From: Thermotogota bacterium
Lineage (GTDB): Bacteria > Thermotogota > Thermotogae > Thermotogales > Fervidobacteriaceae
Assembly: GCA_030550315.1 (NCBI GenBank)
Contig: JAUQPP010000006.1
Span: forward strand, 1-51,248
Direction of reading: 5' to 3'
DNA length: 51,248 nt
Part shown: positions 2,902 to 9,766 of the stretch, piece by piece
Numbering within the stretch: position 1 is the stretch's first letter
How the letters are laid out: each line of letters opens with the position of its first letter
Position numbers and translations under genes: made by a program
The notes under the pieces: model-generated
Database searches by the model: none
What the model was told of the DNA's origin: nothing
What the model saw: the letters and a program-made list of their open reading frames with translations, nothing else

Positions 2902-4026
2902 TTACACCTTTAAAACTCGGCTAAAGCGCTCGGCAATTTCGTCAAGCTCATCATTGGAAACGTTCAACGGCAGCAAGAACCTAATAGTTTTTTCTCCAAC
3001 AATGTTGACCAATAGTCCCTCACTTAAGAACTCCTCCTTTGTCACTCGTTTTTCCAGCTCCACACCACGCATTAATCCCAAACCGCGAACCGTACCAAAT
3101 TGTGAGAATATTTCCTTAAAAGCCTTTCCAATATTCGTAACGTGTTCTAGTAGCTCAGCAGTTATCATCTGCAGTATTACACGTCCTGCTGCTAAAGCCA
3201 CAGGATTTGGTGCAAAAGTAGAACCATGTTCACCGGTTTCGAAGATGTCGGCCAACTCACCAAGCATTAGACAAGCTCCAAGTGGGAGACCTCCTCCGAT
3301 TCCTTTTGCAATGGTTACTATGTCTGGGTCTAAATCAAAATGTTGGTAGCCGTAGAATTTTCCAGTTCGTCCAAGACCACTTTGAACCTCGTCGGCAACA
3401 AGGAGAAAATTGTGCTTTTTTTGGTAAAATTTGATAACCTCAACCACTTCCCCCGGTATCATGTTCAGTCCTCCACTTCCATGAATAACTTCGAGAAAAA
3501 CTGCATCAACCGTTTCCGCTTTCATGAATACCTCGACTTCTGAAGCGTTGTATGGTAGAAAAACAACCTCAGTATCATGTTCTATAAAAGGTATTCTTAT
3601 TCTCTCAAAGCCCGTAATCCTTAAGGCACCCAACGTTCTTCCGTGAAAATTCTTGACAAAGCTCACGATCTTACCCTTTCGTCTGTTCCTCTTTCTGAAT
3701 TTTTCAATTACCTTCAGCGCACATTCGATGCTCTCTGCTCCAGAATTCGTAAAGAATACTTTCCCACCTTTTCCAGTTTCAGAGATAAGTCTACGAGCAA
3801 CGTACTCAGCATCTTCGTCGAGAAAGAAGTTCGACAGGTGGACGTACCGTTCCATTTTTTCCTTCATAGCTCGAATGACATTCGGATGGTTGTGCCCAAA
3901 TAGAAGTACACCGATACCCATGAAGGTATCAATGTATTCCTTGCCATCAAGATCCCAAATTCTTACTCCTGATGCGTTACGCACCTTAATTGGAAATCTG
4001 ATGTACGTGTCGGCAAGATAGGCCAT
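2902..4026 (-). CDS. Class-III PLP aminotransferase, acetylornithine / N-acetyl-diaminopimelate aminotransferase-like
   Basis: A 374-residue fold-type-I aminotransferase of subgroup III (ArgD/LysJ/GabT family). It shows the family's early W-D-x-[DE]-G-[KR]-[ER]-Y-[IL]-D motif (WDLDGKEYIDTFMGIG), the phosphate-binding loop TNSGAESIECALK, the D-E-V-Q-[ST]-G-[LF]-G-R-T-G-K motif and the PLP lysine in IAKGIGGGLPLGA. I start it at the ATG at 4026, after GGAGGGACGAGG, and not at 4140 inside lysC. It is the last gene of the lysine operon, so its likely job is transamination of the N-acetylated intermediate made by DapD. The usual acetyl-branch enzyme is a class-I PatA-type protein, so this may be an ArgD-type enzyme with that role or a dual arginine/lysine enzyme. 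Confidence 0.8.
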   Translation of the reverse strand: MAYLADTYIRFPIKVRNASGVRIWDLDGKEYIDTFMGIGVLLFGHNHPNVIRAMKEKMERYVHLSNFFLDEDAEYVARRLISETGKGGKVFFTNSGAESIECALKVIEKFRKRNRRKGKIVSFVKNFHGRTLGALRITGFERIRIPFIEHDTEVVFLPYNASEVEVFMKAETVDAVFLEVIHGSGGLNMIPGEVVEVIKFYQKKHNFLLVADEVQSGLGRTGKFYGYQHFDLDPDIVTIAKGIGGGLPLGACLMLGELADIFETGEHGSTFAPNPVALAAGRVILQMITAELLEHVTNIGKAFKEIFSQFGTVRGLGLMRGVELEKRVTKEEFLSEGLLVNIVGEKTIRFLLPLNVSNDELDEIAERFSRVLKV

Positions 4027-4069
4027 CCTCGTCCCTCCGCTCATCTTCCAATTCGCTTGACGTTTCCTG

Positions 4070-5281
4070 TCATTCTTCAACAAGCGAGAAAGCATAGCAT
4101 ATTTTTTCCACAAGTTTTTGAGCGTGTTCTTCAGGTACAAGAAGCGAGATTTTTATTTCCGACGTAGTCACTATTTCCGGTTCTATTCCCTCTTTGGATA
4201 GGATTTCCAAGAGTTTTGAAGCAACTCCGTAACTTGAACGCATCCCCGTACCAACAACCGTAATTTTTGCAAAACTGCCATAAAAATGATACTTTGCTCC
4301 ATAATCGCTGAGCGTATCATCCAGCAATTCTTTTATTCCATCAAGTTTATCCGGAACAACGGTGAATGAAATGTGCGTTCTTTCGCCATTCTTCACCAAA
4401 GAAATCATGTCCACGTTGATTCCCCTATCAGCAACACGTTTAAAAATATCCGAGACAACCGTGGCATCGCTGGTCAGATCGGTTATGGTGACTTTCACTT
4501 GGTTTTGCTCAAGGCTAACACCAGTTACAACCGGTTCTTCAAGCCATTCTGGAAGCCTGTCCACCACCCACGTTCCCTCCTCTTCTATGAAGGATGAACC
4601 ACAATAAATCTTGACACTGTATTTCTTTGCAATTTCTACAGCTCTCGAGTGAAGTACTTTCGCTCCAGTAGCTGCAAGCTCGAGCATGTCATCGTAAGTG
4701 ATATAAGACCATTTCTTTGGACGGCTAACAAGTTTAGGATCGCAACTGTACACACCGGGAACGTCGCTGTAGATCTCGCAGTCACATCTCAGTTTCGCAG
4801 CTAAGGCTACCGCAGACGTATCAGAGCCTCCCCTACCAAGTGTGGTATAATGACCATCTTCTGTAATACCTTGGAAACCTGTAATAACCAATACATCGTG
4901 TTCCTTGAGGTACTCTTTAAGATTGGGTAGGTTTATATCCAGAATACGCGCGTTTGTGTGATGTCTAGTGGTGAGTATTTTCGCTTGAAACGCGTTAAGA
5001 GATATTGCTTTGACCCTAAGATCCTTTAGAGCCATTGCAACCAGTGCACACGAGACCTGCTCACCCGTGGCAAGTAACATGTCGAGTTCCCTTTCATCCG
5101 GTCGATTTGAAACGCTCTTTGCAAGTGCAATTAACTGGTCTGTTGTTTTTCCCATAGCTGAGGCAACAACAACTACTTTGAATCCGTCACGCACTTTTCT
5201 CACGATACGATTTGCAACATTCCTGATTCGCTCTGGATCAGCAACCGATGATCCACCGTATTTTTGAACGATTACTTTCAA
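4070..5281 (-). CDS. lysC: Aspartate kinase
   Basis: A 403-residue monofunctional aspartokinase catalysing the first step of the aspartate family (aspartate to 4-phosphoaspartate). The N-terminal kinase domain (to about residue 245) starts with the signature VQKYGGSSV and contains the FQGITEDGHYTTLGRGGSD catalytic segment. Two C-terminal ACT domains follow (about 260-330 and 340-400), which bind feedback amino acids, so allosteric inhibition by lysine and/or threonine is expected. The ATG overlaps the dapD stop by 4 bp (ATGA), indicating translational coupling, and the aminotransferase follows after 43 bp. Confidence 0.95.
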   Translation of the reverse strand: MKVIVQKYGGSSVADPERIRNVANRIVRKVRDGFKVVVVASAMGKTTDQLIALAKSVSNRPDERELDMLLATGEQVSCALVAMALKDLRVKAISLNAFQAKILTTRHHTNARILDINLPNLKEYLKEHDVLVITGFQGITEDGHYTTLGRGGSDTSAVALAAKLRCDCEIYSDVPGVYSCDPKLVSRPKKWSYITYDDMLELAATGAKVLHSRAVEIAKKYSVKIYCGSSFIEEEGTWVVDRLPEWLEEPVVTGVSLEQNQVKVTITDLTSDATVVSDIFKRVADRGINVDMISLVKNGERTHISFTVVPDKLDGIKELLDDTLSDYGAKYHFYGSFAKITVVGTGMRSSYGVASKLLEILSKEGIEPEIVTTSEIKISLLVPEEHAQKLVEKICYAFSLVEE

Positions 5282-6075
5282 GTCCGCCCACCCCCAGCAC
5301 TATCTCCTCTAAGAATCTCCAGAATCTGTGTCTTACTTTCGGTCTTTTCGTCAACGGTTTTTATAACTCTGGCAGGTACACCCGCAACTACTGTTCGTGG
5401 TGGTACGTCGGTGACCACAACGGCACCAGCTGCGACAACCGCACCATCTCCAACCTTCACACCTTCCAATACAACTGCGTTCGCACCGATGACTACACGG
5501 TCACCAATAACCACCGGTTTGGCACTCGGAGGTTCAACCACACCGGCAATAACACTGCCAGCGCCGATATGACAATACCTACCTATCCGCGCCTTGGCAC
5601 CGATTACAACGTTCATATCTATCATCGTGCCTTCACCAATGACAGCTCCTATGTTGATGACTGCCCCCATCATGATAATCGCGTTATCGCCTATTTCCAC
5701 ATATTCTCGAATAATTGCCCCTGGCTCAATTCGAGCGTTGAATTTTGAAATATCGGACAGAGGAATTGCAGAACGTCTGGCTAAGTATTCCACTTTGTAG
5801 GTGTCGACAATTCCACTCTCGAGAATGGGACGGATAAATTCATAATTTCCAAGGAAAATACCAAAATCTCTTCCACCCACAAATTCAAACTCAGTTCCGT
5901 ATCCTTCGAAGCTTTTAAGTAATGCGAGATTTGAAAAATCACCAGAGGCGTACACTCTTACAAGATCTCTCTTCTTGCTCCTGGTAATAAGTTCCACTAT
6001 CTCCTCGCTCGTCAATTCGGTCGGATGTTTTTGAAAGTTACTCATCGTGGTATTGATATGCGTCTTTTTATCCAT
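5278..6075 (-). CDS. dapD: 2,3,4,5-tetrahydropyridine-2,6-dicarboxylate N-acetyltransferase
   Basis: A 265-residue acyltransferase that acetylates tetrahydrodipicolinate, committing the pathway to the acetyl branch. The first ~90 residues are the DapH-type N-terminal domain (TSEEIVELI..., SGDFSNLAL). After that a left-handed beta-helix of hexapeptide repeats runs from about residue 95 to 220 (GDNAIIMMGAVINIG, GAVVVTDVPPRTVVAGVPA). The acetyl rather than succinyl type is inferred from length and architecture. I start at the ATG at 6075, which has GGAGG 8 bases upstream; an in-frame ATG at 6099 lies deeper in dapB without a site. It overlaps dapB by 8 bp and lysC by 4 bp. Confidence 0.92.
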   Translation of the reverse strand: MDKKTHINTTMSNFQKHPTELTSEEIVELITRSKKRDLVRVYASGDFSNLALLKSFEGYGTEFEFVGGRDFGIFLGNYEFIRPILESGIVDTYKVEYLARRSAIPLSDISKFNARIEPGAIIREYVEIGDNAIIMMGAVINIGAVIGEGTMIDMNVVIGAKARIGRYCHIGAGSVIAGVVEPPSAKPVVIGDRVVIGANAVVLEGVKVGDGAVVAAGAVVVTDVPPRTVVAGVPARVIKTVDEKTESKTQILEILRGDSAGGGRT

Positions 6076-6727
6076 GCTCGATACCTCCTTCGAGAACATC
6101 CAGGAAGTTGTAGAATCCCTTTTTTACCTTCAAACAGAAGAGAGCAGCTCTTCTTGCACCACTTGCAAAAACTTTTCTTGATATAGCCGAATGTTTTAGC
6201 TCAAAAACTTCGTAAGTGTTGGCAAAGTAAATAACATGCTCCCCAAAAACTCCACCTATCCTTAACGAACTTATCGGCACCTCTCTACCGACTTCGTGTT
6301 TTAGCATAATGGCAGTGCCAGATGGTGCATCCTTTTTTTGGTTGTGATGTGTTTCAACAATCCAGCAATCCCAACCTGCGAATAGATGAGAAAATTCCCT
6401 CAGTAGCTTCTGAAATATTGCTATTCCCTCTGAAAAATTGAAGCTTTGGACGACCGCAACTTGTTTCCCCAGTTCCCTAAGTATTTCAAAGTGTTCTTGA
6501 GTGAGTGCAGTTGTTCCTATGACCAAATGTGCCGAATATCTTTTACAAAGTTCAACGGTCGTTGAGACAGCACTAGGGGAAGAAAAATCAACAATGACCT
6601 CGGGAGTGCCTCTCTCATCAAAATAATCAACATCAACTTCAAGAACAAGCTCATCCCCATGGCTCGAAAAAAGTTCTCTTAACTCTCTTCCCATCTTACC
6701 CTTCGCACCAACAATACCGTACCTCAT
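6068..6727 (-). CDS. dapB: 4-hydroxy-tetrahydrodipicolinate reductase
   Basis: A 219-residue DapB, the short form typical of Thermotogales (E. coli DapB is about 270). The NAD(P)-binding motif is GIVGAKGKMG at the N-terminus. The catalytic signature E-x-H-H-x-x-K-x-D-A-P-S-G-T-A is present as ETHHNQKKDAPSGTA (residues 125-139), with His127/His128 and Lys132 expected to protonate and bind substrate. It reduces the DapA product to tetrahydrodipicolinate. The ATG overlaps the dapA stop by 4 bp (ATGA). Confidence 0.95.
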   Translation of the reverse strand: MRYGIVGAKGKMGRELRELFSSHGDELVLEVDVDYFDERGTPEVIVDFSSPSAVSTTVELCKRYSAHLVIGTTALTQEHFEILRELGKQVAVVQSFNFSEGIAIFQKLLREFSHLFAGWDCWIVETHHNQKKDAPSGTAIMLKHEVGREVPISSLRIGGVFGEHVIYFANTYEVFELKHSAISRKVFASGARRAALFCLKVKKGFYNFLDVLEGGIEHG

Positions 6728-7623
6728 GTTCCCAACTCCTTTAGAACCTGCGAAAGCTTATCGATCGTCTGTGGCGAAGCTGGAACGAGTGGCAACCTTA
6801 GCTCGTTTTGGATGAAACCCATAAGTGAAAGTAGTGCCTTCACCGGGATTGGATTTGTTTCGATGAAGAGTAGTTTCATAAGTTTAAGGTATCTGAAGTG
6901 AATCTCAAGGGCCCTTTTTACATCCCCGTTTAAAATTGAGTGGGTCATTTCAACCATCGCTTTTGGTATAACGTTGGAGGCTACGGAAATCACCCCCTTT
7001 GCACCAGCGCACATTGTGTGAAACGCGCGGTCGTCGTTACCCGAGTATATGTAAAAGTTCATTGCCCAAGTCAGACGGTAGATCTCATCCGATTGACCTA
7101 CATCGGGGTTTGCTTCTTTGATTGCCACGATATTTGAACAATCTGATGCAAGACGTGCAACGGTCTCAGGCAAAATGTTCACACCGGTTCGTGAGGGAAC
7201 GTTGTAAATAATGATGGGGATATCGAGGCGTTCGGAGAGAAATCTGTAATGAGCGTATAAACCCTCCTGTGTTGGTTTGTTGTAGTAGGGCGTCACTACC
7301 AGTACTGCATCCGCACCATGTTGTTGTGCGTTCTTGGAAAGTTCGAGAGTTTTTCTCGTATCGTTTGTCCCAGTACTTACAATGACTTGAATAGCAGGCC
7401 CACAAATCTCTTTCGTCAGGGAAGTCAATTTATTTCTCTCGTCAACAGTTAGTGTTGCACCTTCTCCAGTTGTACCCGCGACAACAATTGCATCCACACC
7501 ATTCTCCACTTGCCATCGAACAAGTTTTTCGTACGCTCGATAATCCACCTCTCCATCCTTGAAAGGAGTAACGATCGCTGTACCAACTCCACAAAACATC
7601 CTCCAGCCCCTAACATCACTCAT
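6724..7623 (-). CDS. dapA: 4-hydroxy-tetrahydrodipicolinate synthase
   Basis: A 299-residue TIM-barrel aldolase condensing pyruvate with aspartate semialdehyde. The Schiff-base lysine is Lys169 in IVAIKEAN. Tyr140 (IIIYNVPSRTG), the YY pair in TPYYNKP (about 113-114) and the GTTGEG loop complete the active site. The ATG at 7623 overlaps the dapF stop (ATGAGTGA) and is preceded by GGGGGGTG, so it has the stronger ribosome site. However, family members normally begin at MFCGVGTAIV, eight codons later (7599). Either start may be used. The chain ends with the Thermotogales-like segment NELRLPLVPAS. Confidence 0.96.
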   Translation of the reverse strand: MSDVRGWRMFCGVGTAIVTPFKDGEVDYRAYEKLVRWQVENGVDAIVVAGTTGEGATLTVDERNKLTSLTKEICGPAIQVIVSTGTNDTRKTLELSKNAQQHGADAVLVVTPYYNKPTQEGLYAHYRFLSERLDIPIIIYNVPSRTGVNILPETVARLASDCSNIVAIKEANPDVGQSDEIYRLTWAMNFYIYSGNDDRAFHTMCAGAKGVISVASNVIPKAMVEMTHSILNGDVKRALEIHFRYLKLMKLLFIETNPIPVKALLSLMGFIQNELRLPLVPASPQTIDKLSQVLKELGT

Positions 7624-8410
7624 TCACTACACCCCCCGAAAGATAGAGCCTATCAGTTTCAAAATGAACCTTAAGTGATCCTCCACGAGTGGTAATCTGT
7701 ACAGTAAAGTCATCGAATGTTTCATCACGATTCAGACTGGAGAAATCTTCCAATGCGTAAACGTACGCACAGGCAGTTACTCCTGACCCACAAGAAAGTG
7801 TTTCACGCTCAACGCCACGCTCGTAAGTACGTACTTTGATGTGTCCTCTGGCAAGAACGTGGAAAAAATTTACGTTTGCGTCGTATTTGCGTCTCAAATC
7901 TGAAGCATACTTCATTAAGTGCTCGACCAAATCTTCTTCCGTAAAAACTCCGTTGGACGTAACCCCAATGGTTAGGTGTGAAACACCGACATTTACAAGT
8001 TTTCCGGCAAGAATCGCACCGTGGAAAACTTCCAAAATATCTCTATCAATTCTTGGTTTAGGCATTTCTACCTTGATTTCTTCACTGATAATTGCATGTA
8101 GGAAACCCACTGATGTTTCAAATCGAAGGTCTCCACAGAGTCCGTATTTATCATGCAAATACCCCGCAAATACCCTCGCACCATTGCCACAAAACGCTGC
8201 CCTTCTCCCATCTCTGTTGAAGTAGTCCATTCGGAAGTTTAAACCTTCATTGGAACGTTCGACGAAAATAACTCCGTCCCTCTCGCCAACAACATTAAGT
8301 ACAATTTGAGATTTTTCTTTGTCAGTCAGTGATAATTCGGGCAAAAGCTCTACCACAACAAATGTGTTACCCGTTGCAGTGTATGGAACAATATCCAAAA
8401 TACCGTCCAT
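7616..8410 (-). CDS. dapF: Diaminopimelate epimerase
   Basis: A 264-residue cofactor-independent racemase that converts LL- to meso-diaminopimelate for lysine and peptidoglycan. Both catalytic cysteines are present: Cys74 in AFCGNGARV and Cys207 in LSCGSGVTACAY. The N-terminal F-x-x-x-x-x-x-G-N-x-F pattern is seen as YTATGNTFVVV; the usual Asp of G-N-D-F is Thr here. The ATG at 8410 follows GAAGGGAA. It is the second gene of the operon, 14 bp after asd, and overlaps dapA by 8 bp. Confidence 0.95.
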   Translation of the reverse strand: MDGILDIVPYTATGNTFVVVELLPELSLTDKEKSQIVLNVVGERDGVIFVERSNEGLNFRMDYFNRDGRRAAFCGNGARVFAGYLHDKYGLCGDLRFETSVGFLHAIISEEIKVEMPKPRIDRDILEVFHGAILAGKLVNVGVSHLTIGVTSNGVFTEEDLVEHLMKYASDLRRKYDANVNFFHVLARGHIKVRTYERGVERETLSCGSGVTACAYVYALEDFSSLNRDETFDDFTVQITTRGGSLKVHFETDRLYLSGGVVNE

Positions 8411-8424
8411 TCGTTTCCCTTCTT

Positions 8425-9420
8425 TCAGTAGCGTTGTGTTACTTGTTTATACGATAAACTCGAACTAGCGTGTTTTAATAAGATTCGAACAGCGTTGGTA
8501 GCTGCTCCAACTCTCAAGTTGTCTGCGACAACCCAAACTCCAAATGTATGGGCATCGAATAATCTAATCCGACAAACGTACGTTAAATCGCTTCCAGCCA
8601 CATCGACGGGGGTAATAATATCATCCGATACCACGACATTCTCCCCACTGGAGATTGTCTCTATTAAATCGGCTCTCGACATGATAGGAAACAGCGTCCG
8701 TGCTATGATTGCTTCAGAGTGACCAATTCGGACTGGTACCCTCACGGTTGTTGGGTAAACACCTAGCGTTCTTGAGTTCAAAATTTTTCTCGTTTCGTTG
8801 ATCATCTTCCACTCTTCTTGTGATATATCATCCCTCAAATCACCAATCAATGGAATCACGTTGTGAGCAATCCGTTTTGCAAAAACTTTCGGCTCGTAAA
8901 CACCTGTAAGTTGTTGTTCATATTCGGAAATTCCCTTGTAACCAGCTCCAGAAACGGATTGGTAGGTCGAGACAAAGATTTCCGAAAGTTGATACCTGTC
9001 GTGCACTCTATACAGCGCCAGAAGCATTTGAATTGTTGAACAATTTGGATTTGCAACAATTCCGCGATAGCCTTTCAGTAAATACCCGTTTATTTCAGGG
9101 ACAACAAGAGGAATGGCCGGATCCATCCTGAAAGCTGATGAATTGTCAATTACAAGGTTGCTATAATGCGCGGCAATTGGAGCAAAATGTTTCGCAACCT
9201 CGGAACCTGCTGAGAAGAGCACATAGTCATAACCGCGAGCAAAGACGTCTTCAGTAAGTTTTTCTACGGGCAATTCAATCCCCTTAAAGCTCATCCTTTG
9301 GCCAGCAGAACGTTCGGAAGCATACAAGTGGAGTTCGTCAATATTTACCTCCGTGTTTTCAAGTACTGCCATCATGTTTCTACCAACCGCTCCAGTTGCT
9401 CCCACTATCGCAATACGCAT
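8425..9420 (-). CDS. asd: Aspartate-semialdehyde dehydrogenase
   Basis: A 331-residue Asd that reduces 4-phosphoaspartate to the semialdehyde, the branch point to lysine, threonine and methionine. It begins with the NADP-binding loop VGATGAVGRNMM. The catalytic cysteine is Cys127 in NPNCSTIQM. The substrate-binding and base region is VPVRIGHSEA, with the catalytic His. The ATG at 9420 has a very strong GAGGAGGAGAGG upstream. It is the first structural gene of the operon and sits about 50 bp downstream of the leader terminator, so its expression depends on read-through. Confidence 0.95.
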   Translation of the reverse strand: MRIAIVGATGAVGRNMMAVLENTEVNIDELHLYASERSAGQRMSFKGIELPVEKLTEDVFARGYDYVLFSAGSEVAKHFAPIAAHYSNLVIDNSSAFRMDPAIPLVVPEINGYLLKGYRGIVANPNCSTIQMLLALYRVHDRYQLSEIFVSTYQSVSGAGYKGISEYEQQLTGVYEPKVFAKRIAHNVIPLIGDLRDDISQEEWKMINETRKILNSRTLGVYPTTVRVPVRIGHSEAIIARTLFPIMSRADLIETISSGENVVVSDDIITPVDVAGSDLTYVCRIRLFDAHTFGVWVVADNLRVGAATNAVRILLKHASSSLSYKQVTQRY

Positions 9421-9470: not shown

Positions 9471-9510
9471 TAATAAAAAAGCGGGCTACAGTTTCATACT
9501 GTAGCCCGCT
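9471..9510 (-). terminator. Rho-independent terminator in the asd operon leader (attenuator)
   Basis: On the minus strand, AGCGGGCTACAG pairs perfectly with CTGTAGCCCGCT (plus coordinates 9480-9491 and 9499-9510, 7-base loop), followed by TTTTTTATTA. It lies between the operon promoter and asd, so it can only act as a regulated leader terminator. Its 5' arm overlaps one strand of the competing helix at 9504-9582. Confidence 0.9.
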
Positions 9511-9582
9511 GGTATTTTCTGGCCTTGGCCTGCTTTAGCCTTTATACCAAGCCAAACGCAGGCTGACCACTTCCCAGCGGGC
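9504..9582 (-). promoter_or_regulatory. Antiterminator-like helix competing with the leader terminator
   Basis: On the minus strand, GCCCGCTGG (plus 9574-9582) is an exact complement of CCAGCGGGC (plus 9504-9512). The second strand shares seven bases with the 5' arm of the terminator, so the two structures exclude each other. The bases between them can form a stacked arm: UGGUC with GGCCA, GCCUGC with GCAGGC, and UUUGGCUU with AAGGCUAAA. The upstream strand lies inside the leader ORF, 13-18 bases after its lysine codon doublet. No known riboswitch core was recognised. Confidence 0.7.
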
Positions 9583-9658
9583 AGCCGCGTTTAGCTTTTT
9601 TGCACATGTTCTTTCTAACTTCGAAAAATCCCAAATGGAAGCGTACAGAACTTATCAT
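9542..9658 (-). CDS. Putative regulatory leader peptide of the lysine operon
   Basis: This 38-codon ORF begins at an ATG (9658) with GGTGGAGG about 9 bases upstream. It ends at a TAA (9542-9544) inside the leader RNA structure. Residues 15-24 read RKNMCKKAKR, so six of the eight codons at positions 16-23 are Lys, Asn or Met, all derived from aspartate, the substrate of the downstream pathway. The lysine codon pair (plus 9596-9601) lies 13 bases before the strand that forms the antiterminator helix. A ribosome waiting there for lysyl-tRNA should leave that strand free; one that reads on to the stop would disrupt the inner arm. This is inference from the sequence layout. Translation is not proven, and the ORF is too short for a functional enzyme. 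Confidence 0.6.
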   Translation of the reverse strand: MISSVRFHLGFFEVRKNMCKKAKRGCPLGSGQPAFGLV

Positions 9659-9735
9659 CCGGCTTTTCCTCCACCAAATTGCGATTTTCTTTGTGATTCA
9701 TTCTCTATTTTTTGTTTTCTCGTTTTGTTGCTTAC

Positions 9736-9766
9736 ATTATATCATAAATCCACCTGGGTGTGTCAA
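9736..9766 (-). promoter_or_regulatory. Promoter of the asd-dap-lysC operon
   Basis: On the minus strand, a perfect TTGACA (plus 9761-9766) is followed by TGATATAAT, with TATAAT at plus 9736-9741. The spacer to TATAAT is 19 bases, or 17 to the overlapping GATATA. The TGn before TATAAT gives an extended -10. Predicted start near 9729, about 70 bases before the leader ORF. Confidence 0.75.

Follow-up and report, generated by a model that had tools for sequence, protein, structure and literature searches.

The asd leader and the operon downstream

The window analyzed here is a 51,248-nucleotide stretch of contig JAUQPP010000006.1 from a Thermotogota bacterium of the family Fervidobacteriaceae. 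On its minus strand, a leader of approximately 250 nt lies between porB, whose terminator is at 9817-9787, and asd, which starts at 9420. The genes following asd are dapF, dapA, dapB, dapD, lysC, and an argD-like aminotransferase gene (Table 1). Based on its position in the operon, this aminotransferase is probably the lysine-pathway transaminase. Homoserine dehydrogenase was not found in the window's genome nor in any genome of its family, so the asd operon should feed lysine and diaminopimelate only.

Table 1. Features of the asd leader and operon in the window
Feature	Position	Strand	Basis or remarks
Promoter	TTGACA 9766-9761; TATAAT 9741-9736	-	19-nt spacer, TGn extension; from sequence
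Shine-Dalgarno of leader ORF, GGAGG	9672-9668	-	9 nt upstream of ATG
Leader peptide ORF, MISSVRFHLGFFEVRKNMCKKAKRGCPLGSGQPAFGLV	9658-9542	-	38 codons, stop TAA
Control codons Lys20 Lys21 Ala22 Lys23	9590-9601	-	Homologue alignment; K-A-K invariant in nine genomes
P1 (anti-antiterminator or protector) hairpin	9595-9551; arms 9595-9582 and 9565-9551	-	Within the ORF
Antiterminator (AT)	9582-9504	-	9582-9574/9512-9504, 9569-9565/9524-9520, 9563-9558/9533-9528, 9556-9549/9541-9534
Intrinsic terminator (T)	9510-9480 (stem); 9475-9510 with U-tract	-	13-bp stem
asd, aspartate-semialdehyde dehydrogenase	8425-9420	-	NCBIfam NF011456, 1.7e-103
dapF, diaminopimelate epimerase	7616-8410	-	TIGR00652
dapA	6724-7623	-	TIGR00674
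dapB	6068-6727	-	TIGR00036
dapD, N-acetyltransferase type	5278-6099	-	TIGR03532
lysC, aspartate kinase	4070-5281	-	NF005154, 1.3e-158
argD-like aminotransferase	2902-4140	-	TIGR00707 subfamily, below its cut-off

The promoter was not listed by the automatic scan because the scan accepts spacers of 16-18 nt only. The same arrangement is seen in most of the homologous leaders, and the start of the transcript is inferred to lie probably at approximately 9729-9731. Codons 16-23 of the leader ORF specify K N M C K K A K, and its stop codon sits in the AT loop. A preliminary description of the locus, made from sequence alone, had reported the promoter, the 38-codon ORF, its ribosome site, and the identity of codons 16-23. 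All of these held, as did their coordinates. The 9-bp pairing that it reported between 9574-9582 and 9504-9512 also held, but makes up just the outer helix of AT, which is much longer. Similarly, its 12-bp terminator at 9480-9510 was confirmed, the stem being counted here as 13 bp plus the U-tract. The P1 hairpin had been missed, and its inclusion alters the default state of the leader.

Conservation and folding of the leader

A whole-genome search identified a homologous leader upstream of asd in eight further genomes of the family, one of them Fervidobacterium sp. UBA5837. A purine-rich, Shine-Dalgarno-like stretch and a start codon were present in all nine leaders, followed by a 37- to 44-codon ORF. 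In 9/9 leaders this frame (frame 0) is uninterrupted, and the other two contain 1-8 stops each. The peptides of the homologous ORFs end in ...KAKR[SG]CPLx[GS]GQ[LP]AF..., and their N-terminal half is unconserved apart from staying open. The 5′ half of the leader RNA is likewise unconserved, the conserved portion being only P1, AT, and T.

The control region of the homologues contains two or three Lys codons. Within it, AAAGCTAAACGC (AAA GCT AAA) is invariant in the nine leaders though the P1 partner strand varies. In one genome, G006, a P1 pair at GCU has been lost and the Lys-Ala-Lys codons are nonetheless unchanged, suggesting that it is the codons as such that matter. Elsewhere in P1, a double change between two genera has turned one A-U pair into G-C in the window's genus. 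This change alters two residues (S to G and L to P) and keeps the pair; thus, pairing outweighs the peptide at that spot. Formal covariation is thin, with a double change in 1 of 33 pairs, because the core is nearly invariant. The spacer between the leader stop codon and the terminator has diverged and varies from 20 to 35 nt, yet it completes AT in 9/9 leaders: in each of the nine species, only 0-4 of 500 spacer-only shuffles were as stable as the native AT. For the window, whose AT has a predicted stability of −47.6 kcal/mol, none of the 500 shuffles was equally stable. The terminator stem, GCGGGCTACAG/CTGTAGCCCGC, is invariant in the nine genomes.

The window's leader folds with a z score of −5.25, and none of 200 shuffles was equally stable. 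P1, AT, and T compete: AT and T are mutually exclusive, and P1 acts as the protector. In equilibrium folding, the untranslated full-length RNA adopts P1 and T (T = 1.00), corresponding to a default-off state, and AT is favored without a ribosome only in the intermediate that lacks the 3′ arm of the terminator.

The effect of a ribosome was evaluated by footprint folding, an equilibrium model with an assumed footprint. Specifically, the ribosome was placed at each codon, the RNA was blocked as far as 12 nt beyond where the P-site codon begins, and the remainder was folded. In the intermediate preceding the terminator 3′ arm, AT was available through the last Lys codon, and never beyond it, in 9/9 leaders. 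In the window, the last AT-permissive A-site codon is Lys23, and AT is unavailable one codon later. Overall, all 33 Lys codons fall no later than the switch point, and the 144 codons beyond it include no Lys codon. When the footprint was extended by 3 nt, the boundary moved one codon earlier and 24 of the 33 Lys codons were still permissive. With the complete terminator, each of the nine leaders had its AT maximum in the region of the Lys codons, at approximately 0.04-0.43 at 37 °C and 0.06-0.68 at 70 °C, and T was still favored in most species even with the ribosome on Lys. As T wins at equilibrium in most species, read-through must be kinetic, with AT forming first.

The lysine riboswitch and sibling leaders in Thermotogota

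Thermotogota have been credited with lysine riboswitches in a text that does not mention Fervidobacterium (PMC5584792). Among 61 related genomes, 26 contained the lysine riboswitch, RF00168, which is found directly upstream of asd in the family's other genera and in sister families. The window-type leader occupies the exact site at which these relatives have the riboswitch, and RF00168 is absent from every genome with a window-type leader, including that of the window. When Lys attenuators at dapA, dapD, dapF, or asd are counted, 20 genomes carry an attenuator, 26 carry the riboswitch, and none carries both. In the window leader, RF00168 gave no match at the gathering score or at E ≤ 10, and neither the T-box (RF00230) nor the Rfam His, Thr, Trp, and Leu leader families matched at E ≤ 10. 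Searching the leader against Rfam at gathering and relaxed thresholds yielded chance microRNA matches only.

We searched 103 genomes of the phylum with two covariance models, the first built from the nine leaders and the other broader in scope. Sibling leaders with Lys codons were detected at dapA (NKKAK, IKKTK, and IIIKK), at dapD (KNAKK and KKDKK), at dapF (a single Lys, NIK), and at asd of a third lineage, G047 (KKAK). In G030, hom-thrC is preceded by the same scaffold with TTTT replacing the Lys codons (G030:C1:388500-391700; match at 390990-391113, minus strand); no Thr leader was found upstream of hom in any of the other genomes searched. Aromatic codons occur in leaders of DAHP synthase-aroA (FFYAYWF) and of TrpX-type ABC transporters (FSYAYWF, YYFWY, and YFYFYW), and Met codons in that of an aspartokinase-homocysteine synthesis operon (NMMIMC; G004:C1:1484445-1484566). 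Leaders of polar-amino-acid ABC transporters contain KHHAK, KKHVK, or KHYNR, and might respond to two or more basic amino acids. Finally, the leader of a citrate synthase operon contains NNQPEPK, with Gln-Pro-Glu-Pro at the switch point (G089:C13:279022-279143). These codons hint at regulation by the glutamate family. Pfam supports the main gene names downstream of the sibling leaders.

As side observations, the DAHP synthase-aroA and TrpX-type leaders of G030 have a common (F/S)YAYWF run and similar flanks (C1:490299-490451, minus strand; 1961942-1962093, plus strand), and G004, which has the Met-type NMMIMC leader, retains the lysine riboswitch at asd. Weak covariance-model matches designated G002b, G009b, G010, G011, G102, G030d, G066, G070b, G056b, and G071b were dropped as plain terminators inside or after genes.

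In footprint folding of the siblings, the AT-permissive limit fell at or adjoining the matching codons in most leaders. The result was weak or unclear for dapA of G028, dapA and hom of G030, dapF of G024, the G004 leader, and the early codons of some dapD leaders. Across 16 representatives, cognate residues accounted for 50 of the 80 control-window positions and for 25 of the 474 positions outside that window (Fisher, 2e-31). This enrichment was matched by 0 of 20000 within-ORF permutations and 0 of 20000 operon-label shuffles. The latter is the fairer control, as the model that detected the siblings has the scaffold and some of the codons in common with them. The Thr, Met, DAHP synthase, and citrate synthase siblings are each represented by one genome.

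As a check independent of the covariance models, we inspected the DNA preceding hisG, to approximately 1.1 kb before the HisG match. Of 23 Thermotogota his operons, 16 are preceded by a short ORF rich in His codons (HHH, HHHH, HFHH, and HCHH), identified by sequence only. The carriers include G001, of the window's genus, and several members of a family bearing the lysine riboswitch. A bolder reading, which we consider likely, is that the phylum possesses a set of code-swappable attenuators (for Lys, His, Thr, Phe/Tyr/Trp, Met, and probably Lys/His/Arg and Glu/Gln/Pro), several of which share a single RNA scaffold with the codons exchanged according to the operon, and with the lysine member occupying the riboswitch's usual site in at least three lineages.

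A predicted lysine attenuator and its alternatives

The asd leader very probably acts by ribosome-mediated transcription attenuation, its leader peptide serving to gauge the supply of lysyl-tRNA, although there are no expression, ribosome-profiling, or termination data. The computed support consists of a translatable ORF conserved in frame, mutually exclusive helices, a match between codons and switch point, and sibling codons that match their operons. Actual stalling of the ribosome, the kinetic choice between structures, and lysine as the effector are inferred. In the proposed mechanism, transcription would begin approximately 70 nt upstream of the leader ORF and a ribosome would load at the GGAGG/ATG. 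If Lys-tRNA were ample, the ribosome would pass K20, K21, A22, and K23, cover the 5′ arm of AT, reach the TAA in the AT loop, and depart; P1 and T would then form, and transcription would end before asd. If Lys-tRNA were scarce, the ribosome would wait on a Lys codon, masking the 5′ arm of P1 and leaving that of AT free. AT would then form before the 3′ arm of the terminator is made, and RNA polymerase would enter asd-dapF-dapA-dapB-dapD-lysC. Without translation, the full-length RNA is predicted to adopt P1 and the terminator, the off state.

The preliminary description had proposed attenuation by a stalled ribosome, a reading that the computations support strongly. It had considered the fold without translation to favor read-through, unlike the trp model. 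This holds only for the intermediate before the terminator 3′ arm; at full length, P1 and T win, as in the trp model. Its proposed comparison of relatives was run: conservation was found for the ORF and its frame, for the Lys codons, and for P1, AT, and T alike, with the thin covariation described above. It had also named the lysine riboswitch as the usual control in Thermotogota, and relatives do carry it at asd.

That description had further cast the signal as the aspartate family, and this part failed. An attenuator answering several of these amino acids (Lys, Asn, and Met) could draw on codons 16-19 of the window, K N M C, and on the N-M or K-M just upstream of the Lys run in most homologues. 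However, the Asn and Met positions vary, Met is missing there in G006, the Cys codon is also unconserved, most of the Lys leaders designated f2 and f6 have other residues at these positions, and the family lacks a detectable homoserine dehydrogenase. We therefore regard such a sensor as very unlikely, the signal being lysine instead. Also very unlikely is a nascent-peptide arrest leader, in which the peptide KAKRxCPLxGGQxAF would itself halt the ribosome when lysine is sensed. Nine genomes do have a similar C-terminal half of the leader peptide, but this stretch is constrained by pairing in P1 and AT, the double change in P1 swapped two residues while preserving the pair, and the siblings have helices and codon position in common, not peptide.

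A riboswitch, in which the RNA itself would be the receptor for lysine or another metabolite, with an incidental ORF, must also be considered: the RNA upstream of asd is strongly structured and strongly conserved, and relatives have a lysine riboswitch at the same site. Against this, there is no Rfam match, the lysine riboswitch included, and no separate conserved aptamer beyond P1, AT, and T. Moreover, the Shine-Dalgarno-like site and the frame have been preserved in an RNA whose 5′ half varies, and the sibling leaders exchange codons according to operon. A riboswitch is thus highly doubtful, and attenuation through lysyl-tRNA remains the preferred reading.

Attenuation of this kind is known from the Yanofsky-type systems, and the leader meets all of the defining features that are testable in sequence: a Shine-Dalgarno site with a short ORF, a run of cognate codons, protector, AT, and T helices, and the appropriate stall position in the folding model. 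The gammaproteobacterial trp, his, thr, leu, ilv, and phe attenuators are alike in having such an ORF, cognate codons, and helices, with the terminator before a biosynthetic operon. In contrast to these, the window leader uses Lys codons, occurs in Thermotogota, matches no Rfam leader family, and has both P1 arms inside the ORF and the stop codon in the AT loop. The lysine riboswitch shares the gene, position, and presumed signal of the window leader, but is an untranslated aptamer that binds its ligand directly. The T-box also senses tRNA charging before amino-acid genes, but binds uncharged tRNA without translation. Among attenuators, Rfam contains only His, Leu, Thr, and Trp families, with Ile/Val and Phe also mentioned, and a gammaproteobacterial origin with few transfers has been suggested for amino-acid attenuators (PMC3766115). 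We found no prior account of leader-peptide attenuation in Thermotogota in the literature searched, which excluded Lopatovskaya 2010 (predicted attenuation; cited in PMC4833913), a study that may overlap with this one. What appears to be new is the specificity for lysine, the use of such leaders across the phylum, and the substitution for a riboswitch.

A lysine-codon leader with codon-swapped siblings in a deep-branching phylum of thermophiles would mean that translation-coupled attenuation is wider than thought, and an attenuator implies close coupling of transcription and translation at high growth temperature. Replacement of a riboswitch by a sensor of tRNA charging at one operon makes evolution between RNA sensors testable. 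The leader core is conserved more strongly than a simple attenuation model needs. The sharing of strands among P1, AT, and T, a three-way pairing, is the probable explanation of this invariance, though it is not proven.

Separately, we observed that the terminator stem GGGCTAC/GTAGCCC (9480-9510 in the window, and in the homologues) is preserved in three of the phylum's families, a conservation exceeding the needs of pairing.
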